From the IMG/VR virus record IMGVR_UViG_3300021378_000172, positions 1 through 23,124 of that record: DNA of 23,124 nt; one strand, 5' to 3'. Under the pieces are notes generated by a model. That model was not told the DNA's origin. It saw only the letters and a list, made by a program, of their open reading frames with translations, and did no database searches. Each line of letters starts with the position of its first letter. Position 1 is the first letter of the stretch. Made by a program: the position numbers and the translations under genes. Shown here piece after piece: positions 4,155 through 19,197 of this stretch. Origin of the DNA: a virus.

Positions 4155-5495
4155 TTATTGTTCTTCGTTTTGTGATTCTACTTCAGTTACTTGTAATTCG
4201 CTTTCACTATCTCCAATACCATCTTGGTCATCATCTCTTGTAACAATAATTTGTTCTCTATCTGTCAAGAACATATTACCCTCTTCTAGCATTGGGAAAT
4301 CTTCATCTAACATTTTTCTCTGCTCATTTATAGTAAGTATCTTAGTAGGATCAAGCTGAGTAGCAAATGATACTGGTGGCTCGTATTGTATTAATAATTC
4401 TTCTGAGATAAAACCCATCTCTCTATTTAGTATATCTTTTATACCATCTAAGATTAAATCAGAAGTATCTTTAATTACAGTTGTCATTGCCATATCATAA
4501 GCAATTCTAATCTCACTACCTGTGTTGTTCATCTTACCAGAACTAACAATACCTGCAAGAGCAGGTTGCCATCTATGTGCAGTAATAATATTTTGGTCAG
4601 TAATCTTTTGTAAATCTAACCAACTACCATCTTGGTCATCTTTTATAATAGAAACATTCGCAGGTGAAGTATCTCCATTCTTTACAATAAACATTATTTT
4701 TCCATTGTTTCCTTCTCCAACAAACTTTTTCTGTGCTTCTTTAACCAGTTTTTTCGCTTCTTCTTCACCCATATCACCAGAGATTTCAACGATTGCAGAT
4801 GGCTGAAAACCATTTTGGAATTTTGTATGATTCCACTTGCCGATTTCGTAATCAACTGCGATGTGATCCAATGCAGCAACATAGTCAGGTAAGCCATAGT
4901 AAGTAAATGTTGGTTCGTAATCTTTAAAATGCATCACAAATCTTTTACCTTTTACATTTGGGTATAGAGGTATAGTCTGTGTTTTGTCTTTCATAGTATT
5001 GTACTTTGCCCAGTCTGGGTGTACATATACTTCTTTCTTGTTTTTAGCCATTCTAACAGTAGTTGCATCTATATGGTATAGGTTTACCCCACCATCATAT
5101 AAAACGCCTTCTACATAAGCATTTCCAAAAGTGTAATAGTCATCAGCTAATTTCTTGTAAACTTGTCTTAAAGTTTCTTTATTAGCATTTACATCTTTTA
5201 TGTATGCTTTTATTTCTTGATTGCTTGTAACAAACTTAGCACCACTTGTAAATACAGTCTTTTGTGCAAGTACACTTCTATGTGTAGATGACTTACGTTT
5301 AAGCTCTGCTAAATATTGTGGAAATAAATTGTTGTTACCAAAAGGGATATACTTAGTAAGTACCTTTGATATATCTTGTGGTTCTTCTACACTTTGTGGT
5401 ACTGCTAAATCAAAAACACCAAACTCAAAAGTATTACTCTTTTGTTGAGTCTGCTTTCTTACTTGACTTTTTCTTGCTTGTTTTTTCTGACTCAT
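4155..5495 (-). CDS. Portal protein
   Basis: The 446-residue product matches HK97-type portal proteins in length and layout. A basic N-terminal arm (MSQKKQARKSQVRKQ) is followed by a wing domain (about 60-190, with LADDYYTFGNAYVEG and LYHIDATTVRM). Next come a stem-like segment and a C-terminal helical crown rich in acidic residues (from about 400). A portal forms the 12-fold ring through which DNA enters and leaves the capsid. It starts after an A-rich leader (AACAAAAACAAAAG) and overlaps the end of the preceding gene by 62 bases. Unusually, it is downstream of the capsid gene rather than between terminase and protease. Confidence 0.8.
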   Translation of the reverse strand: MSQKKQARKSQVRKQTQQKSNTFEFGVFDLAVPQSVEEPQDISKVLTKYIPFGNNNLFPQYLAELKRKSSTHRSVLAQKTVFTSGAKFVTSNQEIKAYIKDVNANKETLRQVYKKLADDYYTFGNAYVEGVLYDGGVNLYHIDATTVRMAKNKKEVYVHPDWAKYNTMKDKTQTIPLYPNVKGKRFVMHFKDYEPTFTYYGLPDYVAALDHIAVDYEIGKWNHTKFQNGFQPSAIVEISGDMGEEEAKKLVKEAQKKFVGEGNNGKIMFIVKNGDTSPANVSIIKDDQDGSWLDLQKITDQNIITAHRWQPALAGIVSSGKMNNTGSEIRIAYDMAMTTVIKDTSDLILDGIKDILNREMGFISEELLIQYEPPVSFATQLDPTKILTINEQRKMLDEDFPMLEEGNMFLTDREQIIVTRDDDQDGIGDSESELQVTEVESQNEEQ

Positions 5496-5646
5496 CTTTT
5501 GTTTTTGTTATTTTTTCTATTAAATTATTTAAACCTACTTCTTCATAAGCATAAGCCAATTCTTCTTGTGTCGCTGTTGCCCAAGTAATTTTAAAATCTC
5601 CTTTGTAAGTTGAACCAGAAGATAGTCTTGCTTTGTATGTTGCCAT
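5434..5646 (-). CDS. Small protein with Lys-rich tail, upstream of portal
   Basis: From the ATG at 5646 the product has 70 residues: a beta-rich N-terminal half (ATYKARLSSGSTYKGDFKI), an acidic helix (QEELAYAYEEVG), and a Lys/Ser tail. An ATG at 5703 would add 19 residues (MCDCDKK start). I prefer 5646 because its leader is A-rich like that of neighbouring genes, whereas the 5703 ATG sits four bases after a T8 run of a likely terminator, and the stretch between holds an inverted repeat (GTGTGAT/ATCACAC). The last 62 bases overlap the portal frame. Function unknown; possible head or neck accessory protein. Confidence 0.5.
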   Translation of the reverse strand: MATYKARLSSGSTYKGDFKITWATATQEELAYAYEEVGLNNLIEKITKTKDESEKTSKKKSSKKADSTKE

Positions 5647-5706
5647 AATTGTATAAATTTTTAAGTGTGATAAATCTACAATTTTTTTGTCGCAATCACA
5701 CATATT

Positions 5707-5755
5707 AAAAAAAAGATATTAATAGGGTTTACAAAACCTAAGTTTATACCTATTA
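5707..5755 (-). terminator. Candidate intrinsic terminator after tail-tube gene
   Basis: On the minus strand an outer 6-bp stem (5755-5750 with 5725-5720) encloses a 5-bp hairpin (5738-5734 with 5730-5726, loop TGT), with an 11-base bulge on the upstream side. A T8 run follows at 5714-5707, five bases after the stem. The stem is weak, so partial read-through is likely. It separates the capsid/tail-tube genes from the portal group. Confidence 0.45.
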
Positions 5756-5770
5756 TTTATCTAATTAGTA

Positions 5771-6349
5771 TTAAGCTCCAGTAGTTGCAGTTAATGCAGA
5801 AGTATCTACAGTAATTGTACCTGCATACTCTCTTGGCAATTCAAATTGTCTTGCCATTAAACTAACTGTTATACCATTCTCATCTGAATAAGCTGCTCCA
5901 GTACCACCTTCCATACTTGCTAAATTCAAGAATGTTTGATTTTTTGAAGGAACATCTTCATTAGCATATTTCTCACTAACACCTATAACAAATGCTTTGT
6001 CATTAGTGTCAATAGCGATTCCCATCATGCAAGTATCTAATAAGCCTTGTAGCTCACTAAATTTTGTAACATCCATTTTTGGTAACATAAAAGATAAACC
6101 ACACTCAAATGCAGTTGAACCATTTTCTTTAGTTGCATTTATAGTTAATGCAGGAGTTTCGTTTTTAAACTCATACACAAACCAGTTAGCATCTGCAGCA
6201 GTTTCTAGTATGCTTACAATAGAATGAGTACCTGCAGCACCATATGTTACTGCATCACCAGTAGCCCATGATCTTAGAAGAATTTGCTTAATACCACCTG
6301 TTGCTTGTAAATCTGCACAAGTAACACCTAAACCTGTATCTATAGCCAT
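5771..6349 (-). CDS. Probable major tail (tube) protein
   Basis: The protein has 192 residues, is beta-rich and carries no enzyme motif. It follows the capsid gene after a hairpin and an A-rich leader, which suits an abundant virion protein. The middle (LTINATKENGSTAFECGLSFMLPK, about 69-92, then KFSELQGLLDTCMMGIAID) and the C-terminal Gly-rich turns followed by a FELPREYAG segment resemble tail-tube proteins of Bacteroidota phages, which stack as hexameric rings around the tape measure. A head decoration protein is the main alternative, given its place next to the capsid gene. Confidence 0.5.
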   Translation of the reverse strand: MAIDTGLGVTCADLQATGGIKQILLRSWATGDAVTYGAAGTHSIVSILETAADANWFVYEFKNETPALTINATKENGSTAFECGLSFMLPKMDVTKFSELQGLLDTCMMGIAIDTNDKAFVIGVSEKYANEDVPSKNQTFLNLASMEGGTGAAYSDENGITVSLMARQFELPREYAGTITVDTSALTATTGA

Positions 6350-6387
6350 ATTATTATTATTTTTTATAAATTATTAAAAGGTAAATA

Positions 6388-6411
6388 AGAGAGAGCTTTT
6401 ACACTCTCTCT
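6388..6411 (-). terminator. Hairpin between capsid and tail-tube genes
   Basis: AGAGAGAG (6388-6395) and CTCTCTCT (6404-6411) form a perfect 8-bp stem with an 8-base loop. The bases after it on the minus strand are T-rich but broken (TATTTACCTTTT), so at best it is a leaky terminator. It could also be an RNA-stability or processing structure at the 3' end of the capsid message. Confidence 0.4.
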
Positions 6412-6427
6412 ATCTACATTATTGTTA

Positions 6428-7462
6428 TTACTCAATGATTCCCCATTGTACAAGTGAAGAGTACAAGAATTGTACACCTAACTTGAAGTAACCTCTAAAG
6501 AACATTTTTTCTTCTAAATCATCATAGAATACTTTAAATGAACCTTCTGGGTCAGTTACATCAGAACCTATTATTAAGTTATCTGTTGCAACATAACAAG
6601 CACCATTAGTAAAGTTAGTACCACCTTTTTCAAAAATTGTAGGGTTAGTATCAGCTAAGATAGTATCCCACTCATACATAGCTACAACTTCAACACCTCT
6701 AAAGCTAACAGCATTATAACCTCTTTGTGTGTTAGTAATAGCTAAGTCAGAAGTTCCTATAGTATCATTAGTTTCTAAGTTTGCTAAATATGCATTAAAG
6801 ATTTTTGGAGTTACAAAAAACTTCTTGTCAGAAGAAGGAACTTGTTGTAAACTTGCAGGAGCTGTATCATACATTGTTCTTAAAAGACCAATTGCATCTG
6901 CTGCTGTTGGAGCTGCTTCTACACCTGCATATTCAGTTCTAGCTGCTAATACAGTTGCATCTGCACCCATTAACTTCATCCATCCATCCATATTACCATA
7001 TCCTGCTACTGCAGAACCTCCTGTTAGTGAAGTATCATCACCCCAAGCTAGTCTTACTACATCTTGTCCAATACCCTTAACTGCACGATTTACAATTGCA
7101 TCAGCTAATTGAGTACCTTCAATATTCATTACATCTACACCATTTCTATACATTTCTTCAATGTAAGTTCCAAAGAATGCATCTGTACATTGCTCTAAAG
7201 CAACTCTCATTCTACCTGCAGTAATTACTTTGTCATCAATGTTAAAGTTTTGTGAACCACTTAGATTAGAACAACCATCATATTTTTCTACAATTTTTGT
7301 TAGAGCAGCAGAAGTGTAAACATTCATTTTATGCTTAACATTAGGAATTACTCTGTAGTTACGCATTAAATCATCACTTCTAAATACTGGCTCATAAAAA
7401 ATTTCGTTTAAGTTAGCACCACCATAAGTTGCTGCTATACTATTTAAAGCTACGTTTGCCAT
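6428..7462 (-). CDS. Major capsid protein
   Basis: The protein has 344 residues and lies directly downstream of the protease-scaffold gene, the standard position for an HK97-fold capsid protein. The N-terminus (ANLNEIFYEPVFRSDDLMRN) is followed by a GRMRVALEQCTDAFFGTYIEEM region, a long helical segment (about 107-140), the DGWMKLM loop, and an A-domain-like C-terminal half with KKFFVTPKIFNAYL. It ends in a FKVFYDDLEEKMFFRGYFKLG strand region typical of capsid proteins. The start follows the strongest A-rich leader in the window (AATAAATAAAAAA). No long N-terminal delta domain is seen, consistent with scaffold being supplied by the protease gene. Confidence 0.75.
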   Translation of the reverse strand: MANVALNSIAATYGGANLNEIFYEPVFRSDDLMRNYRVIPNVKHKMNVYTSAALTKIVEKYDGCSNLSGSQNFNIDDKVITAGRMRVALEQCTDAFFGTYIEEMYRNGVDVMNIEGTQLADAIVNRAVKGIGQDVVRLAWGDDTSLTGGSAVAGYGNMDGWMKLMGADATVLAARTEYAGVEAAPTAADAIGLLRTMYDTAPASLQQVPSSDKKFFVTPKIFNAYLANLETNDTIGTSDLAITNTQRGYNAVSFRGVEVVAMYEWDTILADTNPTIFEKGGTNFTNGACYVATDNLIIGSDVTDPEGSFKVFYDDLEEKMFFRGYFKLGVQFLYSSLVQWGIIE

Positions 7463-7483
7463 TTTTTTATTTATTTTAGATTA

Positions 7484-7888
7484 TTAATTATTAAATTTTG
7501 CTCTTACTCTTTCAGCCATTGCATTGTAAAAAGTTGCATTAGCATCAACAGTTTTATTTTCAACTACAGCAGGGTCGCCTTCAGTTACCACTTCAGTACC
7601 TTTAGCATCTGCTTTGTTCAATAAAGCATTTAGTCTTTCTATTTCAGTAGAAAGAGTTTCATTTTCTCCTTTAGTAGAAGTTAATTCTTCTTCTAAAGAA
7701 ACAATTTTTCCATTTAAGTCAGTTACACTTGCTTCAAAAGAAGATAATTTGTTTGATATTTCTTCATTATCTGAAAGCATAACATTAACCTCAGTTACAA
7801 CATCTTCTGATTTGTTGTCAGCTCCTTTTACAGAGTTTACAATTTCATCAACTTTGTTGTTAAACCAATTTTTTAACTCTTCAGTCAT
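7484..7888 (-). CDS. Possible nested scaffold protein (internal start)
   Basis: The in-frame ATG at 7888 (residue 210 of the protease) would give a 134-residue protein made only of the coiled-coil scaffold part. Its leader (TAAATAACAAAAAA just before the ATG) is almost the same as the leader of the capsid gene, and is better than the leader of the full-length protease. Phage lambda makes its scaffold Nu3 by the same nested arrangement inside the C protease gene. That analogy is established; its use here is inference. Confidence 0.5.
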   Translation of the reverse strand: MTEELKNWFNNKVDEIVNSVKGADNKSEDVVTEVNVMLSDNEEISNKLSSFEASVTDLNGKIVSLEEELTSTKGENETLSTEIERLNALLNKADAKGTEVVTEGDPAVVENKTVDANATFYNAMAERVRAKFNN

Positions 7889-8515
7889 TTTTTTGTTATT
7901 TACGTTAATATTTAATTTATTATGTATTTGTTCAGTAGTAATGTTTTTGAATTTAGAAACATCATACTTAGCTGCTACTTTAATAGAATCAGAAATAAGA
8001 TCAATAAAACCTAAATCATATGCTTCATTAGCATTTAACCAAGTTTCTTTATCCATCATTTCAACAATTCTATTTAACGACAATCTTGTTTTTCTCTCAT
8101 AAATATTAGCAATTTCACCACTAATCTTTTCTAAGATAGATGCAGTCTTTCTCATATCTTCAGCTTCACCCATTGCACCACCCCAAGCATTGTGTATCAT
8201 AAAAAGAGAATTTTCAGCCATGACAACTTCATCAGCAGCTAATGCAATAACACTACCCATACTTGCAGCTATACCCTCAATATAAGCAGTAGTTTTTGCT
8301 TCTCTCTTTTTTATTATGTTGTACATAGCCATCCCATCAAATACATCACCACCAATACAGTTGATTCGTAAATTAACAGGAGTATCTTTGTACTCTTTCA
8401 TCTCAGAAATAAAGTCTTGTGCAGTAATACCATAAGCACCTATTTCATCAAAGATGTAAACCTCTGCAACAGCATCTGTTGCTTTTCCTTGTATATTAAA
8501 CCATTTCTTATTCAT
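7484..8515 (-). CDS. ClpP-type prohead protease with scaffold domain
   Basis: The protein has 343 residues. Residues 1-180 are a ClpP/S49-like serine protease: the NCIGGDVFDGMAMYN oxyanion region (52-66), the catalytic serine S85 in GIAASMGS, the catalytic histidine H108 in MIHNAWGG, and a probable third residue D155 in MMDKETW. A linker leads to residues about 205-343, a charged coiled coil expected to act as the scaffolding (assembly) domain. The protease matures the prohead by removing scaffold. A second start at M210 could give free scaffold. The ATG at 8515 lacks the usual A-rich leader and sits just after a TAATTTTG box. Confidence 0.85.
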   Translation of the reverse strand: MNKKWFNIQGKATDAVAEVYIFDEIGAYGITAQDFISEMKEYKDTPVNLRINCIGGDVFDGMAMYNIIKKREAKTTAYIEGIAASMGSVIALAADEVVMAENSLFMIHNAWGGAMGEAEDMRKTASILEKISGEIANIYERKTRLSLNRIVEMMDKETWLNANEAYDLGFIDLISDSIKVAAKYDVSKFKNITTEQIHNKLNINVNNKKMTEELKNWFNNKVDEIVNSVKGADNKSEDVVTEVNVMLSDNEEISNKLSSFEASVTDLNGKIVSLEEELTSTKGENETLSTEIERLNALLNKADAKGTEVVTEGDPAVVENKTVDANATFYNAMAERVRAKFNN

Positions 8516-9376: not shown

Positions 9377-11959
9377 TTAAAATGTTGCTTCAGCTTCTAT
9401 AACTGAAACAGTATTCTGTGCAGTAGAAATATCTGATTCTACTACAACTACTCTTCCTCCTTGTCCTATTGCACCCATCATACCTGCCTGACTTGTTGCA
9501 CTAAATTGTGATTGTGCAAACGATGGCATATTCATTAAACCACCATCAGCAAACTTCACTCCACCACCTGCTGCATTCATTGCAGATAATTGATTTCTAA
9601 ACATAGATGTACTACGTTTATTTATAACTGCTTCACCACCTTCTAACTCTACTACTCTACCACCTACTGCAAACTTTTCACCACCATTTGCATGAGATTT
9701 ACCTTCTACCATACCACCATTAGCAAATTCTTGAATCACACCACCATCTTCAAATTTACTTAATTGCTTATCTATTAAACCCCCGACTGCAGCAGATGCT
9801 CCTGCAGCTAATATTAAATTAAGTGGGAAGGGAACGTTTTTAAATATAGATGCTATAAAACCTGATACAGCTTCCATAATTTGTGCTCTTACTACAGACT
9901 TCATAGCTTCTTCTGCTGTTTGACCAGAAAGTATTGCTCTTTTTACATCTGCTTGAAATGCTTTTTCTTTATCTTCTTGATTATCTTCTATTAATTTACC
10001 TTCTAATTCATTTATTTTTTTAATAATAGCTTCTCTATTAATACCTACACCTGTTTGTACTTCTAATAATTTTTTTAAATTTTTAATTTCTTCTTTAATT
10101 AAATTAACTCTAACTTGTGCTGCTTTTTCCTCACCTAATAAACCAAGACCCATTAAATACTCTTGATACGATAAAAGCTCTTTTTGCACATCATTTAATT
10201 TTGTAGTAGCATTAGCATTTTTTGTTTTTGCATCAGAATTTTCATCTAAATCTTCTGTGTTTTCTGGCACATATAAACCTAATTCTTTTTCTAAATCTAC
10301 AACATCTTGTTCTGCATCAGCATATTCTTTAGTGCTTTTTATTGCATTTTTTTGTGCATTATTTAATCCTATAAAATTATTTGTTAATTTTATAGCTTGT
10401 CTTCTAGCAGGATCTAAAACTCTACCAAGTCCATTAAACTCTAATTCTAATTGTTGAATTACTGTTTTATACTGCTGTTGAAAAGTTAAACCTTCTTGTA
10501 AAGTAATGTGATATTTTTCTTTAATTTCATTTAATCTTGCTAAAAACTTTTCTTCTTTATCATATTCTTTATTAACAGCTTTATCAGCTTTTTCTTCTGC
10601 TTTTTTAGCTTTTTCTATTTCTCTTTGTAATAAAATTCTGTTTTTGAATGATACGTTTAATTCTCTTAATCTATCTCTTAATTGAGTTGTAGTTACTTTT
10701 TCAGTATCTAAGTTTTTAAGAAAATCAGGATATTTAACTTGTATTTCACCAAGTAATTTTTTTCTTTCCTCTTCTTGAACATTAACATCAGTAAGTCTTC
10801 CAACTAATATATTTAACTCTACTCTTTGTTTTTCTAAAGTTTCTGATACTGGTATATCTATAAAATCACTTACTACATTTACTAAACCTGCAAATCTGTC
10901 AACTACGTTTTGCAAAGACCTACCTATAAATGACTCACTAAGATTTATCATTAAACCTTGTAAAGCAGAGTTTAACCTTTTAAAAGAACCTTCTAAAGTA
11001 TCACCTACAATTTCTGCCATTGCTTGTGCAGCACCAGAAGCTAATCTTAATTCATTTCTTAATTCTACAGTCCTTTCTTTACTTGTAATCATTTGCTCAA
11101 AAGCTGCAGCTTGTCTTAAATCTACAACTTCCATAATTTTAGCCAAATCACCACCTTCTTCAGAAAACTTTTTTAAAGCAGGAACTAATTGATCTAAGGA
11201 ATGTATAGTTTTACCAAAAGACTTTACCAAATCAGAATTTGGGTCTTGCATTTTAAGAAGTATGTTTCTTAAAGATGTACCTGCAATAGATGCTTCAATA
11301 CCTGCATCTGTAAGTTGTGCCATTATAGCTGTTGTATCTTCTATTGAAAAACCTGCTGATTTTGCAATAGGTGCAACTTTAGTCATGGATGTTTGAAACT
11401 TTTCTATATCAAGTGCAGAACTTGTAAATGCTACAGCCATTACATCTACCACTCTTTGTGTTTCTGCTGCATCTAAACCAAAACCTCTTACAGCAGCTCC
11501 TGCTACAATTGCTGCTCTTCCTAAATCTGTATCTGTTGCAGTTGCTAATTGTAAAGTTGCATCTTGTGCATTTAAAATTTCTTTTGTAGAAAAACCTAGT
11601 TTACCAAAATTAGTTTGTAGCTCTGCTACTTGCTGTGCAGTAAAGAATGTAGACCTACCTAAATCTTCAGCAGTTTTAGATAGTTGTGCAAAATCTTTAT
11701 TACTTGCACCAGTAGTTGCTCGTACTTTAGCCATTTGAAACTCGTAATCTCTAAATGTTCTAATTGACTTACCTACAACTTTATTAATGTTTCTAAATGC
11801 TTGAACAGCAGTAGCAATACCTAAAGTTAAAAAACCATATTGTTTTACTAAACCACCTACACTACCACTAGCTTTTTTAGTTGTTCCTTCTAAATTTTGT
11901 AAGTCTTTTTGTCCTTTAACGACTACCTGTACTACTATCTTTTCTGTATTTGTTGCCAT
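9377..11959 (-). CDS. Tail tape measure protein
   Basis: The protein has 860 residues. Residues about 60-345 match the TP901-type phage tail tape measure core (FQMAKVRATTGASNKDF, the TDLGRAAIVAGAAVRGFGLD helices, GIEASIAGTSLRNIL). Residues about 370-640 are charged and mostly coiled coil. A hydrophobic segment (about 712-730) could act as a membrane-inserting stretch. The C-terminus holds Gly-rich repeats (FEDGGVIQEFANGG, KFAVGGRVVELEGGEAVIN, KFADGG). Tape measure length sets tail length; at about 0.15 nm per residue this predicts roughly 130 nm, in the siphovirus range. Its usual chaperone gene is not adjacent but lies about 6 kb upstream. Confidence 0.9.
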   Translation of the reverse strand: MATNTEKIVVQVVVKGQKDLQNLEGTTKKASGSVGGLVKQYGFLTLGIATAVQAFRNINKVVGKSIRTFRDYEFQMAKVRATTGASNKDFAQLSKTAEDLGRSTFFTAQQVAELQTNFGKLGFSTKEILNAQDATLQLATATDTDLGRAAIVAGAAVRGFGLDAAETQRVVDVMAVAFTSSALDIEKFQTSMTKVAPIAKSAGFSIEDTTAIMAQLTDAGIEASIAGTSLRNILLKMQDPNSDLVKSFGKTIHSLDQLVPALKKFSEEGGDLAKIMEVVDLRQAAAFEQMITSKERTVELRNELRLASGAAQAMAEIVGDTLEGSFKRLNSALQGLMINLSESFIGRSLQNVVDRFAGLVNVVSDFIDIPVSETLEKQRVELNILVGRLTDVNVQEEERKKLLGEIQVKYPDFLKNLDTEKVTTTQLRDRLRELNVSFKNRILLQREIEKAKKAEEKADKAVNKEYDKEEKFLARLNEIKEKYHITLQEGLTFQQQYKTVIQQLELEFNGLGRVLDPARRQAIKLTNNFIGLNNAQKNAIKSTKEYADAEQDVVDLEKELGLYVPENTEDLDENSDAKTKNANATTKLNDVQKELLSYQEYLMGLGLLGEEKAAQVRVNLIKEEIKNLKKLLEVQTGVGINREAIIKKINELEGKLIEDNQEDKEKAFQADVKRAILSGQTAEEAMKSVVRAQIMEAVSGFIASIFKNVPFPLNLILAAGASAAVGGLIDKQLSKFEDGGVIQEFANGGMVEGKSHANGGEKFAVGGRVVELEGGEAVINKRSTSMFRNQLSAMNAAGGGVKFADGGLMNMPSFAQSQFSATSQAGMMGAIGQGGRVVVVESDISTAQNTVSVIEAEATF

Positions 11960-17154: not shown

Positions 17155-18303
17155 TTAATATATTTTGTATTTAGTATTTAAGTAAGATTTTACATTAGCA
17201 ATTTTAGTATTATCTAGCTCATGATTGTATATTATAACCTCTTGTATATTACCATCTAAATAATGCGTTGCATCTTCTGTTAATTTATAACCTATAGTAT
17301 ATGTAGCATCATTAAAAGTAGTATTATTGTCAAAACTAGATTCATTTACATGAGTACTTAATGTATTATTATATTCTAAATGCATATGCTTGTTATGAAA
17401 GTGAGCTACAGCAATATGATAGTTAGAAGTGTCAGAACCACTTAATGTTAAATTAGCACCATTACCACTTGCATCAGAAAAAGATACTCTTAATTCGTTA
17501 TTTGTGCTGCCTAAAGTTATTAGTTTACTACCATTAACAAAACTAAAGTAATCAGCATTTTCAGTAGCATCTGTATTTACTTGTGCTACAAAAAACATTG
17601 TAAAATCTCTTGTAATAGGACAGTTACCATCAGAAACAAAATAATTAGATGTGCCATTAAATTCTATTCTTGCTTTGTCATTAGCACCATCATAACCATA
17701 TCTTAGTGCTTGTTTAGATTTAGTAGCTTGTGCTACACTATTAGTGTTGCCTGATTGATCTGCCCAAGCAGAAATCTTTTTAGTAGGTATGTCAAATGTT
17801 AATCCACTATCTGCTCTTAGCCAAGTAACTAAGTTAGCAATGTCAGAAGGATATGTAGAGGTTGGTCTGAAGCATTTAGAAAATGCACTCATAGTGAAAG
17901 TAAACTTAATCTGTACTAATCTATCGTTAGCAACCTCTTTTACCCTCTCTATCTCTATACTCTCATCATTTAGGTATACATCTACTATATTGTCCTGATA
18001 GTTCTTTAAAACCATGTCAAACCACTCCATAGCCAAGTCTTGTAGGTTATCCCATCTATGTTGTAGTGTTACTGCAGACTGTGCTGCTTGTGGGTATAGG
18101 TTGTAAAAGTTTATTTCAAACTCATATTCTTCTCTACCAGAATATATCTCTGGCATAGTAGATAGTGGTGGGTTAATTAGTAACAGAGGATATTGTGTGC
18201 TATGTGATTCGTTTACCTCACCATCATAACCAAACTTACTATCACCAAAAGTCCATTTGTTTTCAAATACTGTTACTATGTCTTTTAATCTTGTTATTGC
18301 CAT
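17155..18303 (-). CDS. Tail-terminator-like protein fused to a lectin (LamG-like) domain
   Basis: The protein has 382 residues in two clear parts. Residues 1-150 form a compact alpha/beta domain (YPLLLINPPLSTMPE, then YEFEINFYNLYPQAAQS, and VQIKFTFTMSAFSKC) resembling tail-terminator or completion proteins encoded near tail chaperones. Residues about 155-382 are a concanavalin-A/LamG-like domain (LVTWLRADSGLTFD, ISAWADQSGN, ARIEFNGTSNYF, and the final HYLDGNIQEVIIYNHELD). Such domains bind sugars or proteins. The join is inside a single frame with no stop or shift. The lectin part would then hang on the upper tail; this placement is inference. Confidence 0.55.
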   Translation of the reverse strand: MAITRLKDIVTVFENKWTFGDSKFGYDGEVNESHSTQYPLLLINPPLSTMPEIYSGREEYEFEINFYNLYPQAAQSAVTLQHRWDNLQDLAMEWFDMVLKNYQDNIVDVYLNDESIEIERVKEVANDRLVQIKFTFTMSAFSKCFRPTSTYPSDIANLVTWLRADSGLTFDIPTKKISAWADQSGNTNSVAQATKSKQALRYGYDGANDKARIEFNGTSNYFVSDGNCPITRDFTMFFVAQVNTDATENADYFSFVNGSKLITLGSTNNELRVSFSDASGNGANLTLSGSDTSNYHIAVAHFHNKHMHLEYNNTLSTHVNESSFDNNTTFNDATYTIGYKLTEDATHYLDGNIQEVIIYNHELDNTKIANVKSYLNTKYKIY

Positions 18304-18310
18304 ATATATA

Positions 18311-18667
18311 TTACATTACTTTATTTGGGTTGTGAATCTTATCATTTACTGCTATCTCATAATCATTCTTCGCTGTATTCCAACTCAAATATGTTAAAAC
18401 TTTATATAGATTAGTATTCTTTACACTATCTACATCATTCATTCCCTCTACTCTAAAAATACCTTTCTCTGCAACCATATATAAGCTATTTAGCCAACCA
18501 TATGGTTTTATGAACTTGGTATAGAGTCCAACTGTAGAAACTCTTCCTTTGCCTGTTCCAATTCTTCCCCTTCCTTCCCCAAAAACATTTGGAAAGTCCT
18601 TGTTAATTTTACGCTTTGCATAGTCAAAAAAAAACTGAACTCCCAAACGATGTCCATAGTCAATTGC
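18311..18667 (-). CDS. Frameshift extension of tail assembly chaperone (gpGT-like)
   Basis: This frame is open from 18667 down to the stop at 18311 and lies -1 relative to the upstream gene. It has no ATG until about 58 residues after its first possible TTG start at 18646, so independent translation is unlikely. It shares a T9 run (18634-18626) with the upstream gene. A -1 slip on TTT TTT would join the first 190 residues of the upstream protein to 105 residues encoded here, giving a product of 295 residues. Downstream residues include basic stretches (DYAKRKINKDF) and a Gly-rich GEGRGRIGTGKGR segment. Confidence 0.65.
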   Translation of the reverse strand, partial: AIDYGHRLGVQFFFDYAKRKINKDFPNVFGEGRGRIGTGKGRVSTVGLYTKFIKPYGWLNSLYMVAEKGIFRVEGMNDVDSVKNTNLYKVLTYLSWNTAKNDYEIAVNDKIHNPNKVM

Positions 18668-19197
18668 TTAAACTTATCACTTTTTGAGGATATAATATCA
18701 TCATCGTATTCTTCATCTATCTTTCTGCATAATATCGCCATTTGTTCTGGTAAAACATCAAATTTACCATGCTTCATCATTTGTATAGTAGCATCTAACT
18801 GTGTAGACTCTATGTAATCTCCAAAAGTGTTTCTTTTTAGAAATTCCTTTGGAAAAAAGTACACATCACCATCAAATTCAAATCTATCTATACCTTGAGG
18901 TTTATATTCCTCCATCATTTGTCCTATAGTTCCAACAGCAGTATTTACACTTTCTAAATCTAATTGATTTAGCATAGCATCGTTTATACCAGTAACATAC
19001 TTAAATATTTCTCTATTCATTCGTAAAACCTTAACCTCATCTAACTTTGGCTCTACAACTTCTTCTTTTTCTTCTTCTTCAGCAGTTTCAGTATACTTTT
19101 TAATAATATTATATAGTCCACACCAATATTCAAGTGTAATATCCTTCCACTCAGTTGGTATATCGTATTTTTCTTCTTTGATTTGAATTTCTATCAT
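18508..19197 (-). CDS. Tail assembly chaperone, short form (gpG-like)
   Basis: The 229-residue protein is helical and acidic. The N-terminus (KYDIPTEWKDITLEYWCGLY, about 10-29) and the middle (FDGDVYFFPKEFLKRNTFGDYIESTQL, about 108-134) resemble tail assembly chaperones, which coat the tape measure during tail assembly. An acidic linker (EEEEKEEVVEP) lies near residue 40. The C-terminal part overlaps the next frame through a T9 slippery run, so a longer fused form is likely, as in lambda G/GT. The ATG overlaps the preceding stop (ATGA). It is not next to the tape measure, which is unusual. Confidence 0.6.
   Translation of the reverse strand: MIEIQIKEEKYDIPTEWKDITLEYWCGLYNIIKKYTETAEEEEKEEVVEPKLDEVKVLRMNREIFKYVTGINDAMLNQLDLESVNTAVGTIGQMMEEYKPQGIDRFEFDGDVYFFPKEFLKRNTFGDYIESTQLDATIQMMKHGKFDVLPEQMAILCRKIDEEYDDDIISSKSDKFKQLTMDIVWEFSFFLTMQSVKLTRTFQMFLGKEGEELEQAKEEFLQLDSIPSS
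18626..18634 (-). promoter_or_regulatory. T9 slippery site for -1 frameshift
   Basis: On the minus strand nine T residues read AGT TTT TTT TTG in the upstream frame and CAG TTT TTT TTT in the -1 frame. A tandem slip TTT TTT to TTT TTT keeps full pairing. The run is the only long homopolymer in the 160-base window where both frames are open (18667-18508). A 9-bp hairpin with one bulged G (18596-18574) lies 29 bases downstream, farther than classical stimulators. Confidence 0.65.

Follow-up and report, generated by a model that had tools for sequence, protein, structure and literature searches.

A probable programmed −1 ribosomal frameshift at an all-U slip site joins two frames of a likely tail-assembly chaperone gene in tailed Bacteroidota phages

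The window analysed here is the whole 23,124-nt stretch of viral DNA (positions 1 to 23,124 of IMG/VR record IMGVR_UViG_3300021378_000172), whose minus strand carries two overlapping reading frames, A and B, that meet at a run of nine Ts. The features of the locus are as follows.

18508–19197 (−): ORF A, giving the unshifted product (gpG-like, 229 aa), with an ATG start and relatives down to ~20% identity
18311–18628 (−): frame B as read after the slip, 105 codons and a stop (gpT-like domain), in the −1 frame and open from 18667
18626–18634 (−): the T9 run, with the in-phase slippery heptamer T_TTT_TTT at 18634–18628, kept in relatives
18508–18667 (−): the 160-nt overlap of the A and B frames, dual-coding 3′ of the run, with reduced synonymous change
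18637–18642 (−): GAGTTC directly 5′ of the T run, a synonymously frozen cis element
9377–11959 (−): tape measure protein, the expected partner, matching PHROG tape-measure families with E values down to 5e-54

The codons of A around the run read TGG GAG TTC AGT TTT TTT TTG ACT ATG, and a slip of −1 there would join residues 1–190 of A to the 105 codons of B in a protein of 295 residues, against 229 without a shift. These lengths agree with the original prediction, whose 160-base overlap at 18508–18667, second frame at −1 (both in the window and wherever the frames of relatives were mapped) and T9 run at 18634–18626 shared by both frames, with an in-phase heptamer inside it, were also reproduced. 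Frame B terminates at 18313–18311 and, with the following gene starting 7 nt further on at 18303, takes up the available room. The T9 at the A/B junction is the sole run of nine or more Ts on the sense strand of the window, and such runs occur about once per 306 kb in the other coding sequence of these loci; this rarity, together with the retention of the arrangement in relatives, shows that the run is not at the junction by chance. Depletion of T9 elsewhere, considered as a sign of slippage, was uninformative (one observed, 1.1 expected).

T9 and a B frame at −1 were present in every one of the initial set of at least 98 distinct IMG/VR loci. Later scans seeded with more distant members enlarged this set to at least 234 distinct IMG/VR and phage junctions listed, with T9 in 230, T10 in one and no run in three, and with B in the −1 frame wherever it was mapped; the scans were ranked by similarity, and these counts are lower bounds over members that are not independent. 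The run and the two overlapping frames, whose conservation in related phages the original prediction had proposed to compare, are both kept in 231 of the 234 junctions listed, the other three being run-free in-frame fusions, and the 229 junctions with flank enough for clustering form at least 54 clusters at 80% nucleotide identity. The junctions use mainly two codon registers, xxT TTT TTT TTG/TTA and xTT TTT TTT TAY or TGG, with T_TTT_TTT in phase in both. Homologous A and B, T9 and B in the −1 frame also occur in the cultured Nonlabens phages P12024S/L, with a slip-site register (CTT TTT TTT TAT) unlike that of the window, and their A/B pair was deposited as two unrelated hypothetical proteins, P12024S_38 and P12024S_39 (PHROG 32199 and 38404). 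These phages and a Flavihumibacter MAG are the relatives on which assignment of the window's host to the Bacteroidota rests, making such a host probable.

Both frames evolve as protein-coding sequence. The dN/dS ratio was 0.07–0.30 in the part of A outside the overlap, 0.14–0.7 in the tail of A inside it, and 0.02–0.06 in B past the end of A where dS was measurable and not saturated, and the B protein contained an invariant FF and a GW motif. The ratio far below 1 in B and the constraint on the post-slip tail of A show that both ends are real proteins. Within the overlap of A and B, synonymous change is reduced. In 92 sequences of the window-type register, synonymous change is normal through codon −5 and then stops, with GAG in 90/92, TTC in 92/92 and xxT in 92/92, followed by TTT, TTT and TTG/TTA, with free variation at codons −5, −7 and −10. 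The freezing of GAGTTC in these 92 window-clade relatives thus begins abruptly after freely varying codons. Sequence comparison establishes the two-frame architecture, coding selection in both frames and conservation of the slip site.

In three relatives, A and B form one continuous frame without a T run:

L343, 847–1785: fused A–B, junction CTG TTC TAT GAA
L345, 910–1788: fused A–B, junction GCT TTC TTC GAA
L347, 895–1776: fused A–B, junction AGC TTC TTC GAG

The fused junctions encode FF or FY, one residue short of the FFF of the −1 slip product. All three fusions cluster with T9 relatives, and two changes are needed on the tree, which points to two origins, although the best-supported branches do not strictly bar a single one. 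L372 is another single frame lacking the run, and L414 may be one too, both matched at weak scores. These natural in-frame fusions show that the A–B product is real and functional and that the run was dropped once the shift was not needed; by this comparison the run is retained only where the shift is needed. The original prediction had looked to relatives in which the run was broken while B was kept with its own start codon, and the opposite was found, in that run-free relatives fuse A and B.

T9 alone leaves undecided whether the ribosome or RNA polymerase slips: nine Ts hold the heptamer in phase whatever the register, and polymerase slippage has its known threshold at nine as well. Run lengths in prophages of Bacteroidota genomes do separate the two mechanisms. 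A first group had T9 in the 13 matches listed, whereas a more distant prophage family had exactly T7 in 27 loci, T8 in four and T9 or T10 in the rest, giving a tally over 62 distinct genome loci of 29 with T9, 27 with T7, four with T8 and two with T10. Profile comparison by hhalign matched the distant prophage genes to the window family in both A (probability 98.3, E 2.3e-14) and B (probability 93.4), showing that they are homologous. Despite the varying run (T7–T10), T_TTT_TTT is always in phase in these prophages, and the 27 T7 loci sit in the ribosomal register. As read from these alignments, the whole family holds U_UUU_UUU constant in the ribosomal register but lets the length of the run vary, and this fits ribosomal −1 slippage better than polymerase slippage, which depends on length and not on phase. 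In E. coli, heptamers of the form U_UUU_UUY are prone to shifting (PMC4066793).

Taking these observations together, we consider it quite probable that the ribosome rather than RNA polymerase slips. Most ribosomes would read A through to its own stop and yield the 229-aa protein, while a minority, an efficiency that we infer, would move back by one base when TTT TTT of T_TTT_TTT occupies their P and A sites, pair anew with UUU UUU and go on in frame B to yield the 295-aa A–B protein. Comparison gives strong support to the originally predicted programmed −1 frameshift at the T run, through the two-frame architecture, selection, the frozen site, the run-free fusions and the invariant heptamer.

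Alternatively, RNA polymerase may slip on T9, so that A–B comes from ordinary translation of mRNAs carrying one U more or two Us fewer. The classical threshold for bacterial transcriptional slippage is nine A or T (PMC1088944; PMC5009743), and the run is 9 or 10 in all 231 of the 231 shifted viral junctions listed, across several codon registers; a near-exact T9 in the viral clades is not predicted by the heptamer alone. Neither is the complete absence of C from the last position of the heptamer, a change that one register would tolerate silently in both frames, because UUC is as shifty in E. coli. A terminator-like hairpin could also have GAGTTC as its 3′ arm, and the natural fusions join by FF or FY, not FFF. 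However, 27 homologous prophage genes have exactly T7 and four have T8, all in the ribosomal register and short for polymerase slippage, and the upstream hairpin is weak, favoured in only parts of the window clade and absent from other clades, so that it was rejected as a general element. Judged by the mxiE-type rule, a homopolymer of at least ~9 with phase irrelevant, the window and the viral clades (T9) fit and the family as a whole (T7 and T8 in phase) does not. The T run of Shigella mxiE and the nine-base run of Thermus dnaX likewise place a long homopolymer at the frame junction; in those genes the polymerase slips, whereas here the in-phase T7 homologues argue for the ribosome. Transcriptional slippage, which we once preferred on the strength of the 9-or-10 viral runs, was overturned by these prophages, and we now regard it as unlikely. 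A mixed form, in which the T9 clades make the long chaperone by polymerase slippage, or by polymerase and ribosome together at a single site, and the T7 relatives by the ribosome only, seems equally doubtful; if true, a phage tail gene family would have swapped its recoding machinery by a gain of two Ts.

In the search for a downstream stimulator, folding showed nothing significant (z 1.29 and −0.26) and consensus pairing had no support, so the original description of an all-U slippery run without a downstream stimulator holds. The GGGAG 5′ of the run was rejected as a Shine-Dalgarno-like stimulator, as it is not conserved where another residue takes the place of Trp (TAT GAG). Shine-Dalgarno sequences go unrecognised by the ribosomes of Bacteroidia (PMC9976891), so stimulation of this kind is not expected and the upstream element common in other bacteria should not be available.

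What the frameshift gene encodes is indicated by its architecture, its neighbours and its fold. A and B had no matches in Pfam, NCBIfam, PDB sequence or PDB fold searches, and a tail-chaperone match was sought in Pfam, NCBIfam and PHROG with none found. The AlphaFold model of A (mean pLDDT 77.5) matched many uncharacterised phage proteins (E values down to 1.7e-14), the P12024S protein among them, and its weak named BFVD fold matches include tail assembly chaperones (E 0.13–1.2); B is helical. Another fold match of A, gp10 of Flavobacterium phage 6H (L251, about 10050–10930), has T_TTT_TTC (T6C) near its end, where the −1 frame stops at once and a B-like frame joins only with another shift, which may reflect an error or different recoding. 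A/B lies in a block with HK97-gp10-like and tape measure genes, ~6.3 kb upstream of the tape measure gene and transcribed in the same direction.

Like lambda G/GT, the locus has a short protein with a −1 extension and a conserved overlap, and lies among tail genes upstream of the tape measure. Its second frame overlaps at −1 without a start of its own, an in-phase heptamer of the X_XXY_YYZ form (T_TTT_TTT) is conserved in the shifted homologues read, and the in-frame fusions L343, L345, L347 and L372 represent a functional fusion product. Xu and colleagues reportedly described −1 frameshifting in dsDNA phage tail genes in 2004. The lambda slip site is GGGAAAG, whereas here it is an all-U heptamer inside T9, with no detectable sequence similarity between the systems; moreover, other genes separate A/B from the tape measure gene, and some relatives ended the shift by A–B fusion. 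From the frameshift architecture, the tail-gene position and the weak fold matches, A/B is likely a tail-assembly chaperone, in which A would bind the tape measure and the B domain would recruit the tail-tube protein. The G/GT logic of the original prediction is plausible from the architecture, the position of the gene and a weak similarity of fold, and family models lend it no match. The frameshift could be real and the protein something else, a reading compatible with either slip mechanism and overlapping our preferred one; the missing family and PDB matches and the several genes between A/B and the tape measure gene speak for it, whereas the tail-module position, an overlapping −1 architecture typical of tail chaperones and the named fold matches make it improbable. 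We conclude that A and B are probably the two parts of a single frameshift gene in a tailed Bacteroidota phage, the likeliest identity being a chaperone pair of the lambda G/GT type made by a ribosomal slip.

It is very improbable that B is instead translated separately, from a start codon of its own or by re-initiation. Of 95 sequences in the window-type register, 85 have an NTG in frame B four codons 5′ of the run, but it follows from the V/I-Trp codons of A, and no start lies 5′ of the run in 10/95 window-type and 42/45 other-register sequences. As originally noted, no ATG is near the start of the second frame: none precedes the conserved domain of B, and a TTG at 18646 is the only pre-run candidate. 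The start annotated for B in P12024S/L falls deep inside the domain, so that B is truncated there, and the natural fusions join A and B. By these comparisons, B usually has no usable start codon. Long T runs are prone to error, but a homopolymer sequencing error or a decaying gene is excluded for practical purposes by comparison with relatives, as the same T9 recurs in hundreds of independent assemblies, isolate phages included, and purifying selection acts on both frames.

The A/B gene is a further case of a known frameshift-gene type, and its all-U site is widespread, unrecognised even in the cultured Nonlabens phages. The site is spread over phages and prophages of Bacteroidota, hosts without Shine-Dalgarno pairing, and the comparison corrects annotation, as B was missed or truncated even in those cultured phages. 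The natural T7, T8, T9, T10 and fused versions provide a ready experiment on the ratio of short to long chaperone and on the need for the short form.

Elsewhere in the window, the gene after B (17155–18303, −) appears to join an N-terminal part that resembles the small tail gene following B in relatives to a laminin-G-like C-terminal domain (Pfam Laminin_G_3, below cut-off). A 119-aa ORF at 1374–1733 (−) appears by eye to resemble an M15-type D-Ala-D-Ala carboxypeptidase endolysin. The head genes (ClpP-like protease, capsid and portal; 4155–8515, −) lie downstream of the tape measure gene, the usual order being head then tail.
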